IMG/VR virus record: IMGVR_UViG_3300020074_000068 | Location: 1 to 33,047 of that record | DNA length: 33,047 bases | Direction: 5' to 3' (one strand) | Source: a virus | Position numbers and translations under genes: made by a program | Notes under the pieces: model-generated | The model's database searches: none | What the model was told of the DNA's origin: nothing | The model's input: the letters and a program-made list of their open reading frames with translations, nothing else | Shown: positions 3,004 to 14,970 of the stretch, piece by piece | How positions within the stretch are numbered: the stretch's first letter is position 1 | Layout: each line of letters opens with the position of its first letter

Positions 3004-5343
3004 TTAGATTCCAAGGCTTGCTGTTACCCATCCGGTTACACTGTTTCCTGTATAGATCCATAGCTCGTTAGCGGCAGGATTAACATACATACTACCGGTA
3101 GCTGGATTTGCATCTGTTTGAGCAGGTACTATAAAGCTTCCAGTCACGATGAAAGAACCGGTTACTGTTAGAGGGCCGCCAACTATACCTACGGATCCGC
3201 TAATTATATGGCTATCTGTGAGGCTAGTACCTAACGATACCGCGTTTTTAGATAGAATGCTTCCTGAAACTGTTAATACGTGGTCTCTTCCATTTTGTTG
3301 TGAATAAGTGTAGTTGGTACTGCCGTCTTCGAGAGAAAAGTTGTTACTTATGATAGTATAGATCGGAATTTTTCCTTCGCCAGCTCCAAAAGATCCTCCA
3401 ATTAGAGTATCTGCTTGTTGCCTTACGAGTTTAATTGCACCGGCGGGGATATTTCCTGCAGCATTTGGTACTGCGTGTCCTATATTAGTATCGTTATAAT
3501 AAAAAGTATATCCTAGCGTGCTTGCAGTACTAAGATAAACGTCTCCGCGGAGAATAGTACCAAAAGCAGGTACTTGTGTTCCGCCAAACTTAATACTTGC
3601 CCAGTTAGTTCCTACTACTGAATTGCCTTGAATGTAATCAGTGCCTATTATCGAGCCGGTTACTGTTAGTCCGTTTGCATAGTTACCGCTTCCGCTTACG
3701 TCTAATGTATATTGAGGTAGTGATTTATTGATGCCTACCTTTGCTTGAGTCATTGATCCAGAGAAGCCAGTATTATTAATGTCTCCATAAGAGCCGGTTG
3801 CAAAAATTACACCACCTATATTTATAGAATCTTTTCTATTATTTTGCAGGGTTATACCGGTTCCGATAATAATATTGTTAGTACCTATCTGATTTTCTCC
3901 CGGATTTCCTGGGAATAAATATCCAGCTCTATACCCTATTATTGTAGAGTAAGAAGCAGTACTAGCTTGATTCCCTGCAAACTGTCCGATAAAGGTTGAA
4001 TTAGAAGCAGAAACGGCTGCATATCCTGCATTCTCACCAACAAAGAAAGAGCCTTCAGCTTCTCTTGCTCCTGATCCAGCAGAAGTACCTAGGAATGTTG
4101 CTCCGGCAGCATTTGTAGCTTCGTTTCCTGCATTAGCACCTATGAAAATAGAGGTTTGAGCATTAGTAGCAAAATGGCCTGCTTGATATCCTATAAAAGT
4201 AGAATTGCTAGCGTTAGTTGCTCCTTGACCTGCCGAGTTACCTAGGAAGTTAGATAGATGAGCAGAGGTCGCATTAACTCCTGCATTTGGTCCTATGAAG
4301 TTAGAATTATAAGCATTAGTAGAGCCGGATCCTGCAAACTCGCCTAAAAAGTTTGAGTGATTTGCCCCGTTTGCTCCATATCCAGCCTGGTTGCCTAAGA
4401 AGTTGGAATCGGTGGCAGTAGTGGCTTGAAAACCTGCCGAGTTACCTAGGAAGTTGGAATCGGTGGCATTAGTGGCTTGAAAACCTGCCGAGTTACCTAG
4501 GAAGTTAGAGTGATTAGCATTGGTCGCATCAACTCCTGCCGAGTTACCTAGGAAGTTAGATTGATTAGCATTGGTCGCATTATTTCCTGCATTTGTTCCA
4601 ATGAAACTTGAAAAACTTGCGGTTGCTGCTCCTGCTCCTGCGTTTAATCCAATAAAATTTGAATTATTGGCTTCTCCTGCATTTTGACCGGCATTAGTAC
4701 CGATAAAATTTGAGAACTGTGCGTTGGTAGCTGTATATCCTGCTGCATTGCCGATCATCACAGAGTTACCGGCTCCTGGTACAATATACCCTGCTACATC
4801 CCCAATAAACACCGAAGACGAAGCGTTAGTAGAGTTTTGACCGGTTCCGTTATTTCCAATAGCTACAGTTCTAATTGCATTAGTAGCAGATTGTCCGGCT
4901 GCATATCCTATAAAAATACCTTGGCCAGCATTACTGTTACCTGCTCCTGCAGCTACTCCTATAGCTACCATATTATCTGATCCGTTACTACCGTTACCGG
5001 CATTGAGCCCTAAAAATATACCGTCTGTAGTATCGAACGCAGTTGTAGGAGGGATCGTTGAATATATTGAAGATCCGCTACTTGATACTGCAAGTACTAC
5101 GTTAGCTCCTGGTGCATACGATGCTGATACGGCAAACGAGCTGCTTACTGCAAAAGAAGCTGATACAGCATTCAATACGAAGCTAGCCGTTTGTGCAGTT
5201 ATAGACGATGTTACTTGTGGTAACGAGTTTGCTAGATTCGTTATAGATAATTTCGAAGTCGTAGCTGTAGCTACTACAGGTAACACATCAGTACTTGTTA
5301 CTGAAGTAACTGCAGGAAGTTGGGATATTCTTACGTTTGCCAT
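3004..5343 (-). CDS. Large repetitive fibre-like protein, 779 aa
   Basis: This is a probable virion fibre (tail, baseplate or head decoration). The N-terminus MANVRISQLPAVTSVTSTDV resembles the attachment region common in uncultured tailed-phage fibres. It is followed by a Ser/Ala-rich stalk (ASFAVSSSFAVSASYA, residues about 50-90). From about residue 109 to 483 there are about 22 copies of a 17-residue unit, consensus S-N-F-L/I-G-x-x-A-G-x-x-A-T-N-A-x-x. The regular small-residue and hydrophobic spacing suggests a beta-roll or beta-helix like the YadA head but with a longer period. The C-terminal 290 residues contain several ASGS/TGSF motifs, and the protein ends MYVNPAANELWIYTG...WVTASLGI, a typical fibre tip. 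No S74 chaperone domain is apparent. Host recognition is likely but inferred. Confidence 0.75.
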   Translation of the reverse strand: MANVRISQLPAVTSVTSTDVLPVVATATTSKLSITNLANSLPQVTSSITAQTASFVLNAVSASFAVSSSFAVSASYAPGANVVLAVSSSGSSIYSTIPPTTAFDTTDGIFLGLNAGNGSNGSDNMVAIGVAAGAGNSNAGQGIFIGYAAGQSATNAIRTVAIGNNGTGQNSTNASSSVFIGDVAGYIVPGAGNSVMIGNAAGYTATNAQFSNFIGTNAGQNAGEANNSNFIGLNAGAGAATASFSSFIGTNAGNNATNANQSNFLGNSAGVDATNANHSNFLGNSAGFQATNATDSNFLGNSAGFQATTATDSNFLGNQAGYGANGANHSNFLGEFAGSGSTNAYNSNFIGPNAGVNATSAHLSNFLGNSAGQGATNASNSTFIGYQAGHFATNAQTSIFIGANAGNEATNAAGATFLGTSAGSGAREAEGSFFVGENAGYAAVSASNSTFIGQFAGNQASTASYSTIIGYRAGYLFPGNPGENQIGTNNIIIGTGITLQNNRKDSINIGGVIFATGSYGDINNTGFSGSMTQAKVGINKSLPQYTLDVSGSGNYANGLTVTGSIIGTDYIQGNSVVGTNWASIKFGGTQVPAFGTILRGDVYLSTASTLGYTFYYNDTNIGHAVPNAAGNIPAGAIKLVRQQADTLIGGSFGAGEGKIPIYTIISNNFSLEDGSTNYTYSQQNGRDHVLTVSGSILSKNAVSLGTSLTDSHIISGSVGIVGGPLTVTGSFIVTGSFIVPAQTDANPATGSMYVNPAANELWIYTGNSVTGWVTASLGI
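3894..5019 (-). repeat. Tandem 51-bp (17-aa) repeats in the fibre gene
   Basis: About 22 units of 51 bases lie back to back. The best conserved copies begin at 4400, 4451, 4502 and 4553 (exact 51-base spacing) and are nearly identical at nucleotide level over most of their length, while outer copies have diverged to share only the IG-x-x-AG core. Confidence 0.85.
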
Positions 5344-5687: not shown

Positions 5688-6287
5688 TTATTTAACCCAT
5701 GTTCTTTGATTATAGTGATAAGCGAGGCTACAGTTTTGATCATCGTAGATCTGACTGCTATCAAAAAATTTAACATCATCTCTACTTAAACACCACTCAG
5801 TAAGTGCGTATACGCTGAATGGTTCAGCCTGATCTTCTCTTAAATTAGTACGAGCTAAACAATACTCTATATATTTTTTAGTTAATCCAGGTCTAGCTAA
5901 GATAACATAATCATCTAAAAGATATATCTTTTTAGGGGGGGTGTAAGAATAGTAGCTATTCCTTCGGACGAAAATTAAATTACAATTATCAAAAAGACTA
6001 TAAACTGAATCGAAATTCGCTTTCCATTCTATATCAAAATCACAGCAGATACCGCCTTTATAATTTAATACTAAATACTTTGCAAGCTGTAGCTTATGGA
6101 AAACCGTAGAGGATAAAAATAAATTGCTAAACTCTCCAAGAATCGGGATCAACTTATCCTCAGTCCAGATTTCGAAATTGTATCCTGTATTCGATTCTTT
6201 AGCTCTATTATAATTCTTAATAAAACGTTCAGGAATATCTTTATCGCCAACCCATATATAATGTACAAAATTATTATACGATTTCAC
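5688..6287 (-). CDS. GT32-type glycosyltransferase (DXD sugar-binding)
   Basis: The N-terminus NNFVHYIWVGDKDIPERF matches the start of GT32/OCH1-like glycosyltransferases ('IPKxIHxIWxG'). The segment KLQLAKYLVLNYKGGICCDFDIE carries the family core, with the DFD (DXD) metal/nucleotide-sugar site. The C-terminal HYNQRTW matches the usual 'H..xxSW' ending. At 199 aa it is complete but compact. The start is GTG at 6287, overlapping the nrdJ end by 14 bases; the GGAGGGG formed by nrdJ's Gly codons just upstream acts as a plausible ribosome-binding site, indicating coupling to nrdJ. The acceptor is unknown; modified DNA bases, virion proteins and surface glycans are all possible. Confidence 0.75.
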   Translation of the reverse strand: MKSYNNFVHYIWVGDKDIPERFIKNYNRAKESNTGYNFEIWTEDKLIPILGEFSNLFLSSTVFHKLQLAKYLVLNYKGGICCDFDIEWKANFDSVYSLFDNCNLIFVRRNSYYSYTPPKKIYLLDDYVILARPGLTKKYIEYCLARTNLREDQAEPFSVYALTEWCLSRDDVKFFDSSQIYDDQNCSLAYHYNQRTWVK

Positions 6288-8130
6288 AAGCCCCTCCTGC
6301 GCATGCTAACTCTCCCATAAGATTTGTAGTATCAAAAAATTCTACTACCTTTGATAAGTCAATATCATTCAAACTCTTTATAAGTTCATCGTATTGTTCT
6401 TTTGAACAATCTTGAAAAGGTGCTTGTTTGTAGGTATGATCAGAAAATGGAAGTACTGATAATCCGTTGTAAAATTTGCGATTTTGCCACATCCACTTGC
6501 CTACTTCATCCCATTCGTTATCCTTAATTGAAACTGTTGCTGAGATATTATGAGTATTCTGTCCAGTTCTATGACCGGGTTTTATCCAGTGCTGATAGAA
6601 AAATTTAACTCTTTCTAGCAATTGCAAAGCCGATTCATGACGTAAGATAGATCCTTCAGGTGCTTTTTGAGGAACAGAAATTACTGCTGTATCGTGAGGA
6701 CGAAAATACTCGTCTTCAACAAGCTCTGGATGATAGATTGAAAGGTATGAGTAAATAGCTTCATTCTTACCTACACGAACCCTACGAATATAGTAATCAT
6801 TGTGCCATGCATGAATACCGCTTGATGTCCCTAGGGTTAAGGAAGAGGTACCGGAGGGTTTGATAGTAGTACATCTTGCAGCAGGATTAATACCGATCAG
6901 CTTAGCAACTCTTTCATTTTCTTCTTTTGTGACCTGAGCTGCTTGTTTGAGGTCTAATTTCAGTACCGCACCCGAACCTATCCCCGTCATACCTACTCCA
7001 ATTAATGCGTCTTTTTCAGTCGTACGCTGCCATACAGGACGTAAGTAGTGAAAATTGGTGTAAGAAGTCTGCAGGGTACCTATAAATGCTGCTGCTTTAA
7101 CTCTTTGGTTTAGATCTTCTTGATCATTAACGTCAGAAACGTTTACTTCGCATAAGTTACAAAACTGATAAGGACGCAAAGCGATTTCACAGCACGGGTT
7201 AGTTCCCCAATCTTTATCGTTGCTAAAATAAATCCCGGGCTCGCCAGCTCCCGATGCTTTAATTTTATCCCAGAGTGCTGTAAAAAACTCTTCAGTAACC
7301 TTGCTACGTAAAAGTACAGCAGAATTATTAGCGCGACCTCTTTGAGGATGGCGTTCCCACCATGCACCAGACTTGGCAGCAATCATGTCTTCATCGTCGG
7401 CGCTAAAAAGGCTAATTAAAGCAGCTCTACGGATACCCCCTGTTAGTACTGCATCTGCTATATGACATACAATATCGTGAACCTCGATAGGATTTAATTT
7501 TTCGTTATCCTCCTTGCTATCTAAAACTCCTTGAATCTTAAGTAAACATTCTTTTAGAGGTTGAGGGCCAGGCGCTTTACCACCAGATGTAATTAATTGT
7601 GTGCCTTTAGGTCTTATATCAGAAAAATCAAATACCGGTGTGGATCCGCCTTCGAAGTAAGTTCGCACTAATACCTTAACAGCATCAGCCCAACCTTCAA
7701 TACTATCACCAATTAAAAAACGGCGATGTTTTTTAGGGTCAGGTTTTCTAATCTCAGGTAGTTTATCGACGTGATGTTTTTGTACAGAGTAGCCTACTCC
7801 AGTACCGCCAAGAAGTAAGAACATCGTTTCGCCAAAAGCACGCCAATCATCTATAGGTAAGTAAGCACAATTATATATACGATTAGGGCTAATTTCAATA
7901 GGCTTGCCAGCAAACTGCATAGAGCGCATTGAAGGTAAAGCCTTTTTATTATAAACAAAAATGTAAGCATCTTCAATTTCCTTTTTTAACTTAGGAAATT
8001 TTTTTAAGTGCATTTGCTTATTTCTATCAACTAAATCACGCCAGGTCTCTCTTTTTTTTAGCTCTTGATTGAATTTCGCGTATTTCATATACACGGTAAT
8101 GTCACTTAAGATACTCCGGGAAATATCCAT
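6274..8130 (-). CDS. nrdJ: Adenosylcobalamin-dependent (class II) ribonucleotide reductase
   Basis: It reduces ribonucleotides to deoxyribonucleotides with a B12-generated thiyl radical and supplies phage DNA synthesis. The arrangement follows the monomeric Lactobacillus RTPR type. C88 (IYNCAY) and C324 (FCNLCE) are the expected redox pair, C313 in NPCCEI is the expected radical cysteine (11 residues before C324, as in RTPR), and the C-terminal ELACAGGACEIV holds the C-x4-C shuttle (C610, C615). Other signs are GGTGVGYSVQ, GGIRRAA and the PSGTSS loop. At 618 aa it is shorter than the 739-aa L. leichmannii enzyme. No NrdA/NrdB is seen. It needs host cobalamin but not oxygen. An 90-base spacer separates it from the upstream gene. 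Confidence 0.9.
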   Translation of the reverse strand: MDISRSILSDITVYMKYAKFNQELKKRETWRDLVDRNKQMHLKKFPKLKKEIEDAYIFVYNKKALPSMRSMQFAGKPIEISPNRIYNCAYLPIDDWRAFGETMFLLLGGTGVGYSVQKHHVDKLPEIRKPDPKKHRRFLIGDSIEGWADAVKVLVRTYFEGGSTPVFDFSDIRPKGTQLITSGGKAPGPQPLKECLLKIQGVLDSKEDNEKLNPIEVHDIVCHIADAVLTGGIRRAALISLFSADDEDMIAAKSGAWWERHPQRGRANNSAVLLRSKVTEEFFTALWDKIKASGAGEPGIYFSNDKDWGTNPCCEIALRPYQFCNLCEVNVSDVNDQEDLNQRVKAAAFIGTLQTSYTNFHYLRPVWQRTTEKDALIGVGMTGIGSGAVLKLDLKQAAQVTKEENERVAKLIGINPAARCTTIKPSGTSSLTLGTSSGIHAWHNDYYIRRVRVGKNEAIYSYLSIYHPELVEDEYFRPHDTAVISVPQKAPEGSILRHESALQLLERVKFFYQHWIKPGHRTGQNTHNISATVSIKDNEWDEVGKWMWQNRKFYNGLSVLPFSDHTYKQAPFQDCSKEQYDELIKSLNDIDLSKVVEFFDTTNLMGELACAGGACEIV

Positions 8131-8220
8131 TTTTTACTCTTTTTTTTTATAATTTTAAAGATAAGTAATTCTATCGGTTATCTTACGATACCGTCAAAAT
8201 CGTAACTGTGATCATTAATA

Positions 8221-8464: not shown

Positions 8465-9838
8465 TTATTTCCCTAATTCAAAAAACCTTTGCTGTAAAAA
8501 ATTTCGTTCTTCTGCACTAAATCTAGTAACAGGCTTCATAGGTACTGCAGCACCTTCCTGAACAAACTCTTCTTCGCCCATCTCACGTGATTGTATCTCG
8601 ATATTCCCATTTTCAGTATTAATTTTTACAGGATATGTCATACCGTCCCCTCCATAACGGTTTTTCATAATATGTGCTCTACCTGTACCGTTAACTTTAT
8701 CTAACCTCTTCCTAGACAAGGACATCGCAAAGTCTGCAATCATTATTTTATTATAACTACCAGCAGCCTTATCTCCTTCTATTACATCATCTTTTGCGCC
8801 AGCTCGATTTACTTGAGATACGGTCCAAACAGGAATCTTTAAATCTCTAGCCAAGGCTTTAGTTGAAACATAAATATCGTCTATTTCGTCTTTTCTCTCA
8901 ACTGATTTTCTTTTTGATTTCAAAAGATCAACATAGTCAATAATAATGAGATTAGGTCTGTTTCCTAGATCAGTAAGTTTCTGAATATGACTCTCAATAG
9001 TAGATATAGATGCTTTACCCATAGTAAATTCTTTGATAATAAGTTTACCGGGCAGTTTGCTGACTGCTTCATCTACTTCTTTTCTATGTAAGTAAAGATC
9101 CTGAATTCTTATACCAGTAAATATAGAGTCATATCTTTTACCCATATATGTTTCTGAAAGTTCGAGAGTATAGTGAGCTACAGTCCCTCCGCTTGAAACT
9201 ATCATTGCTCCTAAAGCTACGAGCATCCAACTCTTACCCCCTCCGGGATTGCCGAATATAATACCTAAATCTCCTGAACCTAATCCGCCCTGTAGTAGCC
9301 CGTTTATATGCTCCCATGGAGTAGGTTGAGGGCTTCTCTCTTCCGTTCTATAACGAGTCTCAGCATCTTTTTCATACTCGTGGCCAATATTTTTATCTTG
9401 ACCCGCCTTAAGGGCAGTATCAATAAGGTAACGAATATCATCATATTGACCTTTTTCGAGTAATTCAACAGATGATAGTAATGCTTTTTTTAACTGCTGA
9501 TTTTTGCAGAAGTTAGAAAATTCTTGCTCAACAAAATCTCTATCTTCGTTTGATGCTTTATAAGCCTCTTTTAATTGCTCAATTACAGATACTTTCAGTA
9601 TTTCATTTTCAATTTTTTTTATTTCTACAGTTAATACATCTAGTGTTGGTGTAGTATGAAATTTATAATGGTATTTTAAAATTTCCTCTACAATCCATTT
9701 ATGAGCTGGATTATCGAAATAGTCTTCTTCGAGAATATCGAATATACTAAGCAGAAATTCTCTATGCTTAAGAAGACTAGATAGGACTTTTATTTGAAAG
9801 CTTACGCCGTACTGGTTCAGCTGATTTAAAACACTCAT
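8465..9838 (-). CDS. Replicative DNA helicase (DnaB/T4 gp41-like, SF4)
   Basis: A hexameric 5'-3' helicase that opens the replication fork. The N-terminal about 140 residues are helical, as in the DnaB/gp41 N-terminal domain (ILEEDYFDNPAHKWIVEEIL). The RecA-like core starts near residue 175. Walker A is GNPGGGKS (196-203), HYTLELSE follows, and Walker B is LIIIDYVDLL with D301; SQVNRAG and the later KNRYGGDG are the usual sensor and arginine regions. The C-terminal about 40 residues are acidic and then helical. At 457 aa it matches the gp41 size. It follows the glycosylase-exonuclease fusion by 19 bases. No separate primase or helicase loader is visible here. Confidence 0.9.
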   Translation of the reverse strand: MSVLNQLNQYGVSFQIKVLSSLLKHREFLLSIFDILEEDYFDNPAHKWIVEEILKYHYKFHTTPTLDVLTVEIKKIENEILKVSVIEQLKEAYKASNEDRDFVEQEFSNFCKNQQLKKALLSSVELLEKGQYDDIRYLIDTALKAGQDKNIGHEYEKDAETRYRTEERSPQPTPWEHINGLLQGGLGSGDLGIIFGNPGGGKSWMLVALGAMIVSSGGTVAHYTLELSETYMGKRYDSIFTGIRIQDLYLHRKEVDEAVSKLPGKLIIKEFTMGKASISTIESHIQKLTDLGNRPNLIIIDYVDLLKSKRKSVERKDEIDDIYVSTKALARDLKIPVWTVSQVNRAGAKDDVIEGDKAAGSYNKIMIADFAMSLSRKRLDKVNGTGRAHIMKNRYGGDGMTYPVKINTENGNIEIQSREMGEEEFVQEGAAVPMKPVTRFSAEERNFLQQRFFELGK

Positions 9839-9857: not shown

Positions 9858-11255
9858 TTATTGATCTTTTAACTTATATTGAATTAATTTTGCAAAAGTT
9901 TCATTAAGCCATAATTGAGGATTTAGCAATGTTTTTCCTAGCTGATCTTCTTTGTATAATCTTACAAAACAATTAGGGTCGAAATTATTTTTAGGATTTG
10001 CAACAATATTTTCAAGAGCTAACTTATCGGAATCGGGAATATTTGGATTCTCTAAGTCCATTAACTGTTTATTTATAAGAAGTTGATTTCTGAAGTTATA
10101 AATGTTAGCATACTTCTTATCTTTTCCTTCGCACTCCTTTATCAGTTCCTCTATAGTAAATCTATCTTCAGTTGCAATCGCAGGAAATAATTTTATAAGG
10201 GTTTTTGCTGCTATACCTCTTACCCCAGGTACGTTATCTCCTTTATCCCCTACTATAATTTTATGGGTTAAAAAGTTATGGGGTGGTATACCGTAATCGG
10301 TCAGGACTTGATATGGGTTGTAAATAATTTTCTTTACTGGACTGAAAACAGTAACATCTTTCTTTACCAATTGGAGGTAATCTTGATCAGTCGATATAAT
10401 AAATACTTTATCTTTAAATTTCCCTGTTAAGAAGCCTATTACGTCGTCAGCTTCAATTTTATCTACGACTACGAGATCAACAGGGAGACATTTGAGATAA
10501 TCAATTAGACGTACTATTTGAGCAGTTATCGATTCTGACTCCTCTTCTTGGTCGTCAAAAGCATCCCAATTAGAAATTTTTGTAATATGTCTATTAGCTT
10601 TATACTCTGGATAAAGATATCTCTTGTTAGTAGACCCCCCTTGTCCGTCAAACACTAAAATAACTCTTGTCGGATGCAATTGTTTTATCAGAGACCCTAT
10701 AGATTTTAAAAATCCCCCTAAACCTCCGATATGTGCCCCGCTTAGATTGATATGACTAATAGCTGTAAAGCTACGAAGGAAAGTATTTAAAGAATCAACA
10801 ATAAGTACTCTACTATTCTTATGTAACTCTACCGGCTCTTGCTTCTCCATCTGTTCAAAGATTTTCCTGTAGTCCATTTTTTTTTGTTTTGCGATTGGAT
10901 TTGCAAGCCTGTCCGCTATCCTTTCACGTATTATATGAATATCTTTTTCGGTAGGCGTATAACCGTTCATTAACTCTTGAGGTATACAGTCCCATGACTT
11001 TAAGTAATTCTGTACATTAAATCCTCTTGATATGCATTCGTTGTATAATTCAATATACCTCTCTTTTAAATGCCCTAATTTATCGTAGAAAAAAGATACA
11101 TGACCTTTTCCTAAGCTAAATTCTTGAGGTATACTACTAAGATTAAATCTACCTTTAGCTACAACGTTCGGTATACGTTTTAACTCTCTATGTTCAGCAA
11201 TAAGATGCTTATTTGTTAGTTCTTTAGGTGGTATACCTAAGTTTATTCTTGTCAC
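9858..11255 (-). CDS. Fused pyrimidine-dimer DNA glycosylase (T4 endonuclease V/DenV-like) and 5'-3' exonuclease (T4 RNase H-like)
   Basis: One 465-aa reading frame carries two enzymes that are separate in T4. Residues 1 to about 115 match T4 endonuclease V: MTRINL start with the nucleophile Thr2 and Arg3, H17, then AEHRELKR with R23, E24 and R27, and GKGHVSFFYDKLGHLKERYIEL close to the T4 sequence; the catalytic residues all seem present. A linker (about 116-145) leads to a FEN/RNase H nuclease: VDSLN (D154), VFDGQGG (D203) with NKRYLYPEYKANR, EADD (E268, D270, D271), STDQD (D290, D292) and the helix-hairpin-helix GDKGDNVPGVRG (D337, D340). The start is GTG at 11255, confirmed by the endonuclease V alignment. 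An internal ATG (Met127, 10877) could allow separate synthesis of the nuclease, but it has no Shine-Dalgarno. Likely role: dimer incision, then removal of the damaged strand, plus RNA-primer removal. Confidence 0.9.
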   Translation of the reverse strand: MTRINLGIPPKELTNKHLIAEHRELKRIPNVVAKGRFNLSSIPQEFSLGKGHVSFFYDKLGHLKERYIELYNECISRGFNVQNYLKSWDCIPQELMNGYTPTEKDIHIIRERIADRLANPIAKQKKMDYRKIFEQMEKQEPVELHKNSRVLIVDSLNTFLRSFTAISHINLSGAHIGGLGGFLKSIGSLIKQLHPTRVILVFDGQGGSTNKRYLYPEYKANRHITKISNWDAFDDQEEESESITAQIVRLIDYLKCLPVDLVVVDKIEADDVIGFLTGKFKDKVFIISTDQDYLQLVKKDVTVFSPVKKIIYNPYQVLTDYGIPPHNFLTHKIIVGDKGDNVPGVRGIAAKTLIKLFPAIATEDRFTIEELIKECEGKDKKYANIYNFRNQLLINKQLMDLENPNIPDSDKLALENIVANPKNNFDPNCFVRLYKEDQLGKTLLNPQLWLNETFAKLIQYKLKDQ

Positions 11256-11280: not shown

Positions 11281-12357
11281 CTATTCTTCAGTAGGATCAA
11301 AAACGTCTTTGTTATCTTCGTCAGTTTCAATAATTACATCGAAATCTTTAGAGCCAAGAGTTTTAAGCCAATCTTTTGAATATTGCTTCTTATAAGCATC
11401 AATTGCTTGTTTTGTATCATCAATAAAGCCATGAGCAGTCATAATTACCCGTCCAGTAGATGTAACATCATTTACGTGATTCTTATCGCAACTTATTTTA
11501 GTACGTTTAGCAAATTCAACGTCCTTTCCGTTCTTAGTTGCTTTAATCTTATTAGTTCCTGAATTAGTTACATTACCAAAAGTAATAATTAGAGAAGCAT
11601 CAAAATACATTGTATCACCGCCTTTATTTTTCATCTTAGGCTGGGCCATAATATTCTCAGCTTTAGCAACCCAGATTTTATTAACCGCAAGCATAGTATT
11701 AGTATAAGGTTGGCTTTGTTTGCGTGATAAAACAATCTTTTGATTGATAAAATTACCAAACTGCTGTGACATAGAACCTGCATTCCACTCATTATTATTT
11801 TTATTAGACTCGACTGATAAACGGCAAGGAATAGATCCTACTGAATCCCAAAGAAACAGTAAGTTGTAGGGTAGATTACCTTTCTTTTGTTCATCAAGAA
11901 GATCTGCAATAAATGCTGCTACATCTTCGATAGTATTTAGTCTTTCTCTATCTATATAAATAAAAAACCCTTTGTAATCAGCAACCTCACCTTCCTCGTT
12001 AGGGACTTCTTCGAATACAAGTCCCATTTGCTTAGCATGATCCCAATTCCATTTCATCTCAGTAATAATAAATACAGGTAAGATACCAGTCTTTTGAGCG
12101 CTAACTGCAGCTTCTAAAAGAGCAGTAGTCTTACCAGTATCTGAATGTCCACGTAGCAACGAGATATGCCCAACCGGAATACCGGGGATAGAAAGACAGT
12201 CTTGAAAAGCCTTTGATAAAGGAATCCAAGTTTGCTCTTTCATTTTTATTGAGGTACTTGAAAGATTTTTAGATTGAATAAACTTTTCTAAATTAAAAGT
12301 ACCTTTAACAGCTCCCGCTATACTTTCGTTTAACGAGGCTTTAGCTAGTTTAACCAT
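11281..12357 (-). CDS. uvsX: UvsX-like RecA-family recombinase
   Basis: A strand-exchange ATPase for recombination-dependent replication and repair. Walker A is GHSDTGKTT (about 70-78), followed by the glutamate in IITEMKWNWDHAK. Walker B is LLFLWDSVGSIP (about 167-178). SMSQQFGNFINQKIV and the MLAVNKIWVAK strand match UvsX-type cores, and KNKGGDTMYFDASLIITF is the DNA-binding loop region. The C-terminus is acidic, as in T4 UvsX. At 358 aa it is close to T4 UvsX. The ATG overlaps a TATTTAT sequence, and the gene lies 6 bases after gp32, which also binds the same ssDNA. The UvsY mediator is not recognised here. Confidence 0.88.
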   Translation of the reverse strand: MVKLAKASLNESIAGAVKGTFNLEKFIQSKNLSSTSIKMKEQTWIPLSKAFQDCLSIPGIPVGHISLLRGHSDTGKTTALLEAAVSAQKTGILPVFIITEMKWNWDHAKQMGLVFEEVPNEEGEVADYKGFFIYIDRERLNTIEDVAAFIADLLDEQKKGNLPYNLLFLWDSVGSIPCRLSVESNKNNNEWNAGSMSQQFGNFINQKIVLSRKQSQPYTNTMLAVNKIWVAKAENIMAQPKMKNKGGDTMYFDASLIITFGNVTNSGTNKIKATKNGKDVEFAKRTKISCDKNHVNDVTSTGRVIMTAHGFIDDTKQAIDAYKKQYSKDWLKTLGSKDFDVIIETDEDNKDVFDPTEE

Positions 12358-12363
12358 AAATAT

Positions 12364-13167
12364 TTACTTAAATAGATCATCGAATTCTTCGTCAATGCTA
12401 GGTTTAGCCTTTGGAGTATTTAGAGAAAGAGAGCTTGGTTTTGCAGGAGGTGTAGCTTCCTGTTTAGCGGTAGGAGGAAGCTCTTCAGAGGTTTCTTCTG
12501 GATTCAACCATCCAAGTAGGGCTTCTTTCATATCTTCGTAGCTATACTTCCTGAAACTACTAAATAAATCCGGTTGATTTGCTAGCCACTTCTCTACCTC
12601 TTTTGAATCTTCAGATAGTGGTGTTGTTTTTGTACGTACTCGTACTTTCGATTGGTTAAAAGAAGTACCGTTAGTTTCAGGCCCGGTGGTTTCGATAGTT
12701 ATATCGCGGCCTTGAATAATGTCAGTAAAGTCTCCGATATCAGGATCATCAGCTAGACTTAATAATTCAGCATAAATTTGCTTGCCGAATTCCCAAAGGC
12801 GTACACCTTTTTCTTCTTCGCTGCGTACGATAACAGGAGTAAATACACGCATCTTTGGTTCTAATTTACGAGACATAATCCAGTTCTCTTTATCGCCGCT
12901 AGAAGCAAGCTGTTTGGAAAACTCTACAATAGGATCCTTTTCCCCGTAGTTAGTTAAGGCTAGCATTACCTTGTTTCCAATACCGTAATGGAACATTACC
13001 TCTTTAAAAGGATTTGATTTATCCCATAAAGCCGGAACAATACGGACAACATGCTTACCTATTGACGGTTTCCATAAAATAAGAGACATATCTCTCTTTT
13101 GACCGCTTTGCCTTTGATTTTGCAAGGCGGTTAGTTTAGACTTAATTGCGCCTAAATCCATACCCAT
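12364..13167 (-). CDS. gp32-like single-stranded DNA-binding protein, lacking the zinc site
   Basis: It coats ssDNA in replication and recombination. The N-terminus (MGMDLGAIKSKLTALQNQRQ) is basic and helical like the T4 gp32 cooperativity region. The OB-like core follows (LILWKPSIGKHVVRIVPALWDKSNPFKEVMFHYGIG, then KMRVFTPVIVR), and a Pro/Ala/Ser linker ends in an acidic tail (SIDEEFDDLFK), as in T4. The whole protein contains no cysteine, so the zinc ribbon of T4 gp32 is absent. At 267 aa it is close to the 301-aa T4 protein. Two in-frame ATGs (Met1, Met3) are possible starts. It directly precedes uvsX. The 66-base upstream spacer has no clear pseudoknot that I can see. Confidence 0.8.
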   Translation of the reverse strand: MGMDLGAIKSKLTALQNQRQSGQKRDMSLILWKPSIGKHVVRIVPALWDKSNPFKEVMFHYGIGNKVMLALTNYGEKDPIVEFSKQLASSGDKENWIMSRKLEPKMRVFTPVIVRSEEEKGVRLWEFGKQIYAELLSLADDPDIGDFTDIIQGRDITIETTGPETNGTSFNQSKVRVRTKTTPLSEDSKEVEKWLANQPDLFSSFRKYSYEDMKEALLGWLNPEETSEELPPTAKQEATPPAKPSSLSLNTPKAKPSIDEEFDDLFK

Positions 13168-13674: not shown

Positions 13675-14970
13675 CTAAAAGTTATAGTTGTATCCTTTTT
13701 GTGCTTTAACCCTATATCCATCTTGTTCTAGCACTTCTTTTATTTGCTTTAGAAATCCTTTTCCGTCCTCAGTTGAATAGTCAACAAGAATTGAGTCGTA
13801 AACTATTAAAATTACTTTGCTTTTTTTACCTTTGAATAATATACGTAAATCATTTAGCTTTTTTACGTTATTAACAGTTTCTAGGCATTGAACATAGTAA
13901 TTAAAAAGTTTTTGCGGGTTAGCATTCTCTATCTTTAATTTTCTTTTATTTGGTAGTTCTAAAAAACTATTTCTTTTATATTTTACCCATACTGCTTCTA
14001 GTAACTGATCAACCTTAAAAAACAACTCTATATTTTTATATTTCTCTTCGATTCCGTTATAGAGTTGCCTGAAGGTTATTTTCTTAGATTCTTGGTACTC
14101 TTCAGGTGATAGTTCTTGCTTTCCGAAGTATTGCTTACCTAGTATTACATGTATAGATTCGTCAGAGGGAAGCGGTACGTTTAACATGTTAGCTATTAAC
14201 CTTATGTGATAACCATCAAAATCAAATTCAATTAAGATATCATTTTGAGGTATAAAACTTGCTCTAGAACCATTTTCTTTATTTAAAGCAAGAAAATTAA
14301 TTCCATTAAAAGCATTAGTAGGTCTAGAAGTAATATTATAAAGGTTGTAGCTTGTATAGATTCTATTATCTTTAAAAGATCTAGCCTTCCATGTAGGTTC
14401 AAAAAACTTATCAAATACCCGTTCATTTACTGTTATACCTTGTTCTTCTACCCATTTATAGGCTTCGACATACTCATTTTGCCATTTCTGATCGTTTTCA
14501 GATCCTACATAGCTCTTAACTGTTTCAAATATAGATTCACTCTTTTCATAATGCTTTGAAATAGGTATAAGAGTATTTACTTGCTCTTTATATTTAAACT
14601 TATTATAAAAGTCAAGATGTACGGGTGTATTAAATTGGAGATCTTTTATTTCTCCTGCTTTATCTAGGATATTAAAATACAGATCTATTCCTTGCGGAAT
14701 ATGAAAAAAATAAGAATGCCATTTTTTATCTAGTAAATATACTTTTTTAATATCAAAAATTAAATTTTGTATATCGTCAAGACTTAAGGAAAACCCTTCA
14801 GAATGGTTTATAGGAAAAATGTATCCTTTTTTAAAATCGTTATAATACAGGACGCATGGAGATGTTAGTAGTGGGTGGGTTTCTTCGGAAAGTGAAACTA
14901 GATCTATAAAACATTGATTTGTTTTTGGAAGATGTTTTAATTGTTCTATAGTTTCGACTATATAGTACAT
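13675..14970 (-). CDS. Family A DNA polymerase-like protein with degenerate exonuclease domain
   Basis: The C-terminal half carries recognisable but modified polymerase A motifs. Motif A is IEFDFDGYHIRLIANML (D250 as catalytic Asp; the usual Glu is His255). Motif B is SKKITFRQLYNG (K296/K297, Y304, G306), and motif C is LIVYDSILVD (D392; the usual His-Asp-Glu is Tyr-Asp-Ser). ITSRPTNAFNG (about 213-223) matches the region before motif A. The first 100 residues look like a worn 3'-5' exonuclease fold (FIDLVSLSEE where FDTET is expected), so the metal-binding Asp/Glu pair is gone. At 431 aa it is short. It is the only polymerase here, so it is probably replicative, as in Rhodothermus phage RM378, but activity is not certain. 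A TATAAATA box and a 15-base inverted repeat lie upstream. Confidence 0.7.
   Translation of the reverse strand: MYYIVETIEQLKHLPKTNQCFIDLVSLSEETHPLLTSPCVLYYNDFKKGYIFPINHSEGFSLSLDDIQNLIFDIKKVYLLDKKWHSYFFHIPQGIDLYFNILDKAGEIKDLQFNTPVHLDFYNKFKYKEQVNTLIPISKHYEKSESIFETVKSYVGSENDQKWQNEYVEAYKWVEEQGITVNERVFDKFFEPTWKARSFKDNRIYTSYNLYNITSRPTNAFNGINFLALNKENGSRASFIPQNDILIEFDFDGYHIRLIANMLNVPLPSDESIHVILGKQYFGKQELSPEEYQESKKITFRQLYNGIEEKYKNIELFFKVDQLLEAVWVKYKRNSFLELPNKRKLKIENANPQKLFNYYVQCLETVNNVKKLNDLRILFKGKKSKVILIVYDSILVDYSTEDGKGFLKQIKEVLEQDGYRVKAQKGYNYNF

Follow-up and report, generated by a model that had tools for sequence, protein, structure and literature searches.

T4 endonuclease V (DenV) is a free protein of 138 amino acids that cuts DNA at a pyrimidine dimer by the glycosylase and AP-lyase action of its N-terminal threonine and leaves a nick, from which a 5'–3' exonuclease can remove the lesion-bearing end before polymerase fill-in. 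Among 5'–3' nucleases, T5 D15, the Taq Pol I 5' nuclease and M. smegmatis FEN share domain order, acidic metal-binding motifs and predicted fold with the nuclease described here, while the exonucleases of Flavobacterium phage immuto (QQO91924) and Microcystis phage Mel-JY01, which are 37–41% identical to it over residues 128–461, stand alone, denV being neither joined to them nor next to them. Gene pairs that overlap are common, and many show translational coupling or encode partners (PMC10666635); transitions between reading frames at short runs of A are likewise well documented (PMC3711429). In many bacteria slippage becomes relevant at a run of nine As (A9), and at the A9 of T. thermophilus dnaX it yields about 50% shorter product (PMC1088944).

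We analyzed a viral sequence of 33,047 nucleotides (IMG/VR record IMGVR_UViG_3300020074_000068, positions 1 to 33,047; hereafter, the window), in which denV and a FEN-type exonuclease gene (exo) occupy one reading frame (Table 1). We consider it likely that this locus represents a recent fusion, confined to a single lineage and caused by a single base, of adjacent and normally overlapping genes, which would encode a protein of 465 amino acids. Overlapping pairs and A-run transitions are known; new are this particular gene pair and its fusion, caught near the single-base change. The claim of the original prediction that no DenV–exonuclease fusion had been described agreed with our search of the open-access literature, which found none.

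Table 1 Features of the fused locus and its neighborhood in the window
Feature	Position	Strand	Description and basis
denV–exo fused reading frame	9858..11255	minus	465 aa, GTG start, TAA stop
DenV/T4 endonuclease V (Pyr_excise) domain	10899..11255	minus	Residues 1–119; profile, sequence and structure matches
Linker	10812..10898	minus	Residues 120–148; conserved DenV tail (PIAKQKK) and N-terminal extension also found on free exonucleases
A9 run at the junction	10877..10885	minus	10 purines here in separated simple-junction relatives; DNA alignment
Internal ATG	10875..10877	minus	Residue 127; start codon of free exo in most relatives, retained
FEN-type 5'–3' exonuclease domain	10047..10811	minus	Residues 149–403; profiles, motifs and Foldseek
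DnaB-type replicative helicase	8465..9838	minus	Downstream neighbor; Pfam DnaB_C E = 1.1e-20
RecA/UvsX-like recombinase	11281..12357	minus	Upstream neighbor; Pfam RecA E = 1e-5, below cut-off
gp32-like single-strand binding protein	12364..13167	minus	Same gene block; Pfam gp32 E = 2.9e-11
Family A DNA polymerase-like protein	13675..14970	minus	Weak Pfam DNA_pol_A E = 5e-4, below cut-off

At the DNA level, the single uninterrupted DenV–nuclease frame of the original prediction is present: 465 codons run from the GTG at 11253–11255 to the TAA at 9858–9860 without interruption. The Pfam searches proposed with it matched Pyr_excise at the N-terminus and 5_3_exonuc_N toward the C-terminus, followed by 5_3_exonuc just under its cut-off. 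The Pyr_excise match (PF03013) reached E = 4.5e-13 and 49.8 bits against a cut-off of 23, the phrog_1183 'endonuclease V' profile matched residues 1–120 (E = 1.6e-37) and T4 endonuclease V itself (2END) matched residues 1–119 of the fused protein (E = 3e-21). An AlphaFold model of residues 1–126 (pLDDT 89) likewise had 2END as its top structural match (TM 0.82/0.76, 42% identity). Fold, catalytic residues and N-terminal Thr are thus common to the T4 and window proteins. Alignment with the T4 enzyme found T2, R3, H17, R23, E24 and R27 all in place, as had been claimed: Thr2 directly follows the start codon, R3, R23 and R27 are the equivalents of T4 Arg3, Arg22 and Arg26, and E24 is the catalytic Glu. 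R112 is also present, and R116 replaces T4 K121. Whereas T4 DenV is a free protein, the window domain is joined to a nuclease, and its description as a near-complete endonuclease V stands through T4 residue 124, where the match stops, but not for the aromatic tail from T4 residue 125 on. This C-terminal aromatic segment is also absent from the DenV of relatives, and we treated it as a feature of T4 DenV rather than as family-defining. By homology, the DenV half is a predicted pyrimidine-dimer glycosylase/AP-lyase that keeps all catalytic residues.

Relatives of this DenV showed further variation at the N-terminus. At four loci (L032:3456, L156:2160, L158:3001 and L173:3001), representing at least three separate lineages, ATC stands in place of the start codon before the Thr2 codon; translation from ATC would be non-canonical, and starting farther upstream would be at odds with a mechanism that relies on an N-terminal Thr. 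The DenV relative in a Candidatus Kapaibacterium MAG (L179, match at 4001) begins MSRIN, with Ser for the catalytic Thr2. In Klebsiella phages, denV genes (records MN781108.1, MN434092.1 and MG746602.1) carry the annotation diguanylate cyclase/phosphodiesterase, which is most likely wrong.

The exonuclease half matched 5_3_exonuc_N (PF02739; residues 150–322, E = 2.7e-29, 102 bits), while the match of residues 323–403 to the helix-3-turn-helix domain 5_3_exonuc (PF01367) scored 35.2 bits, just under the cut-off of 40. Its motifs (VDSLN at 153, VFDG at 201, IEADD at 267, STDQD at 288 and GDKGDN at 336) carry aspartates that align with those of M. smegmatis FEN. Foldseek searches with the fused model retrieved plastid exonuclease 1, M. 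smegmatis FEN and T5 FEN (E 1e-15 to 1e-13), with the fold match covering the nuclease part of the protein. The likeness to T4 RNase H originally proposed for this half did not hold up as the closest one, since T4 RNase H (E = 8e-8) ranked behind M. smegmatis FEN, Taq and T5 (4e-16 to 1e-11); by sequence, the exonuclease is nearer to T5/PolI-type nucleases. Unlike the T5, Taq and M. smegmatis enzymes, it carries an N-terminal DenV domain, and does so in the window clade only.

Gene order around the locus is shared with cultured phages: recA–exo–dnaB is found alike in the window, immuto and Mel-JY01, with recA annotated before exo in both named phages. Pfam recognized no 5' nuclease domain in the polymerase A-like protein of the window. 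Positions 6274–8130 encode a ribonucleotide reductase with a B12-dependent (class II) insertion domain, unlike immuto, where an nrdA/nrdF pair is annotated near exo.

We scanned IMG/VR with the fused protein and obtained 80 loci, about half of which seemed to match the whole protein by tblastn. A widespread fusion was nonetheless rejected, because nearly all of these full-length matches proved to consist of two overlapping segments read in different frames. Arrangements were counted in a denV-centered scan, on IMG/VR contigs with both genes readable. The genes were fused in the window and four other contigs, whereas all 65 others kept them as separate neighbors, so the survey of fused versus separate forms envisaged in the original prediction places the fusion in one near-identical clade. 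In 58 of the 65 separate pairs the genes overlap: exo occupies the +1 frame and has its start codon inside the denV 3' end; in the other 7, exo starts just after denV. Separated denV genes end after 129–158 codons, usually inside exo, which begins at an ATG (rarely GTG) matching window residue 127. About 20 further distinct exo sequences had no adjacent denV, and three long partial exo-only records contained no denV elsewhere.

The fused sequences formed one clade in the exonuclease tree (SH-aLRT 99), sister to the unfused L005 (SH-aLRT 96) and inside the overlapping-gene group, and this nesting indicates that the fusion is derived. Both the contig counts and the tree thus place it in one clade rather than across the phage family. 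No DenV–exonuclease fusion was found in 50,697 phage records, none of which covered 80% of the fused protein, or in the wider exonuclease family among the matches listed (80 loci). Across 395 genomes from a single bacterial phylum, Pyr_excise frames reached at most 171 aa.

Overlapping pairs such as L005, L007, L025 and L079 share gene order with the window but remain two genes in different frames, with a purine run one base longer. The L005-type junction matches that of the window nearly base for base, and separated relatives reach 88% DNA identity. In separated simple-junction relatives, ten purines lie between CAAAAC and TGG (for example, AAAAGAAGAA in L005), whereas the window and contig L002 have nine As there, exactly one base fewer. 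The Gs of the purine run are replaced by A in the fused clade, and these G-to-A changes are common to the carriers. One base has therefore been lost from the purine run that immediately precedes the start codon of exo, and denV reads straight into exo. Programmed frameshifting was rejected as a route to a joined product in separated relatives: reaching exo would need a +1 (or −2) shift, no slippery motif is conserved in their purine run and denV tails vary.

The A run lies exactly where the original prediction had placed it, and its A9 form is common to the window and the four other IMG/VR contigs, that is, to five assemblies. A pattern scan of IMG/VR allowing variable run length recovered only A9 alleles, with no A8 or A10, on those four contigs. 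Three of them are 99.97–99.99% identical to the window, and the fourth, L002, differs from it at 97 positions over 10.2 kb (~1% divergence). The sole indel in these 10.2 kb is at an intergenic A9 (coding strand; window 8140–8148), which is one base shorter in L002. All carriers belong to one small group of water-borne phages, and we treated them as two distinguishable strains, L002 and the near-identical rest; with only two such strains, the age and persistence of the fusion are poorly bounded.

Comparison of these two strains indicated constraint on the fused gene, with 11 synonymous and 2 non-synonymous differences (P = 2e-6 against neutrality) and a ratio of 4:1 for denV alone (P = 0.008). 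Judged by this synonymous excess, both halves stayed under purifying selection while fused, barring recombination of alleles. Such selection on the halves gives no sign that being joined is itself selected.

The exonuclease also keeps its own start. Because the ATG at residue 127 is retained, free exonuclease is probably still made from position 10877. The context upstream of this codon ranks 4th among the 121 internal ATGs and falls within the range of real starts, which in this phage mostly have A-rich upstream sequence and rarely a Shine–Dalgarno motif. Structure prediction gave low confidence in the fused model up to about residue 133, and the whole-protein model (pLDDT 73) was low in the DenV half, probably owing to a shallow alignment there. 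Among relatives, denV genes adjoining exo (L096–L164) encode a conserved tail, RLANPxxKQKK, which is missing from free denV genes (L165–L178). Its A-rich codons immediately precede the exo start, where they may contribute to exo translation.

We envisage that the frame opened at the GTG at 11255 would be read through into exo to give a 465-aa DenV–exonuclease, and that the retained ATG with its A-rich upstream stretch would give free exonuclease as well. DenV would nick at the dimer, the 5'–3' exonuclease would remove the damaged strand end and a polymerase would fill in. Joining the two proteins is probably tolerated because past residue 126 the end of DenV varies among relatives and can be dispensed with there (DenV lengths range from 129 to 158 aa, so the tail is not conserved), and because exo already has a flexible N-terminal extension.

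The original prediction went further and proposed a bifunctional enzyme. A true DNA-level fusion with the DenV N-terminus placed as required stands, but an established bifunctional enzyme does not, given 65 contigs with separate genes, a one-base origin and an exo ATG that is kept. Coupling of incision and excision within one molecule is plausible from the domain content, and physical tethering may help repair; equally, exonuclease or DenV activity might be impaired in the joined protein, whose model is of low confidence in the DenV half, although that half modeled by itself is good. That tethering dimer incision to 5'–3' excision has made this a selected bifunctional enzyme nevertheless strikes us as unlikely. 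Both domains are intact and were under purifying selection while fused, the DenV nucleophile is still N-terminal, and the genes lie side by side in about 70 contigs, which makes it plausible that their products act together. However, the genes are joined in one clade only and through one base, exo retains its start codon, relatives with exo only exist (including the three long partial records without denV), and purifying selection would look identical if two activities merely persisted.

We regard it as quite improbable that the A9 acts by transcriptional slippage, as in Thermus dnaX, with A9 transcripts giving the fusion, A10 transcripts a free DenV of 133 aa and the internal ATG the exonuclease. 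The run has the length that is relevant in many bacteria and that in T. thermophilus dnaX gives ~50% shorter product (PMC1088944), slippage there likewise switching between long and short products; from A10 or A7 transcripts, DenV would end at 133 or 132 aa, near its shorter natural lengths. Yet slippage at the window A9 is hypothetical, and the run, unlike that of dnaX, is not conserved: it is confined to the window clade, and the purine runs of relatives are interrupted. Furthermore, A9 is not depleted in the phage genes (1 observed, 1.7 expected), which fits a host in which A9 is not very slippery. A gene with three products, namely a tethered DenV–exonuclease that cuts and excises, exonuclease alone, started internally, and DenV alone, through A9 slippage, appears highly improbable.

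There is similarly little likelihood that the arrangement is decaying, as a mildly harmful allele with exonuclease made only from the internal ATG and DenV compromised; its narrow distribution, one-base origin and alternative start would fit, but DenV codons accumulated 4 synonymous changes against 1 non-synonymous since the fused strains split, and the catalytic residues are intact. Finally, a homopolymer error of assembly or sequencing in a genome that truly has the usual overlapping genes is barely credible: although the junction is a homopolymer and the intergenic A9 of L002 does differ from that of the window by a single base, an assembly slip is disfavored because the junction A9 recurs in all five assemblies, one of them from a strain with 96 substitutions, IMG/VR yielded neither an A8 nor an A10 allele and the surrounding G-to-A changes that leave the run all A are likewise shared by the carriers.

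The single-base fusion that we favor is real, recent and lineage-specific, and we view it as a natural experiment and not as an established repair enzyme with two activities. It captures a gene fusion soon after it arose, while the causal one-base change is still visible and separated relatives share 88% DNA identity, and allows one to ask whether joining sequential enzymes that act on one lesion alters repair or is merely tolerated. More broadly, the conserved denV–exo pair suggests that the uncultivated phages carrying it keep pyrimidine-dimer incision and 5'–3' excision under common expression.
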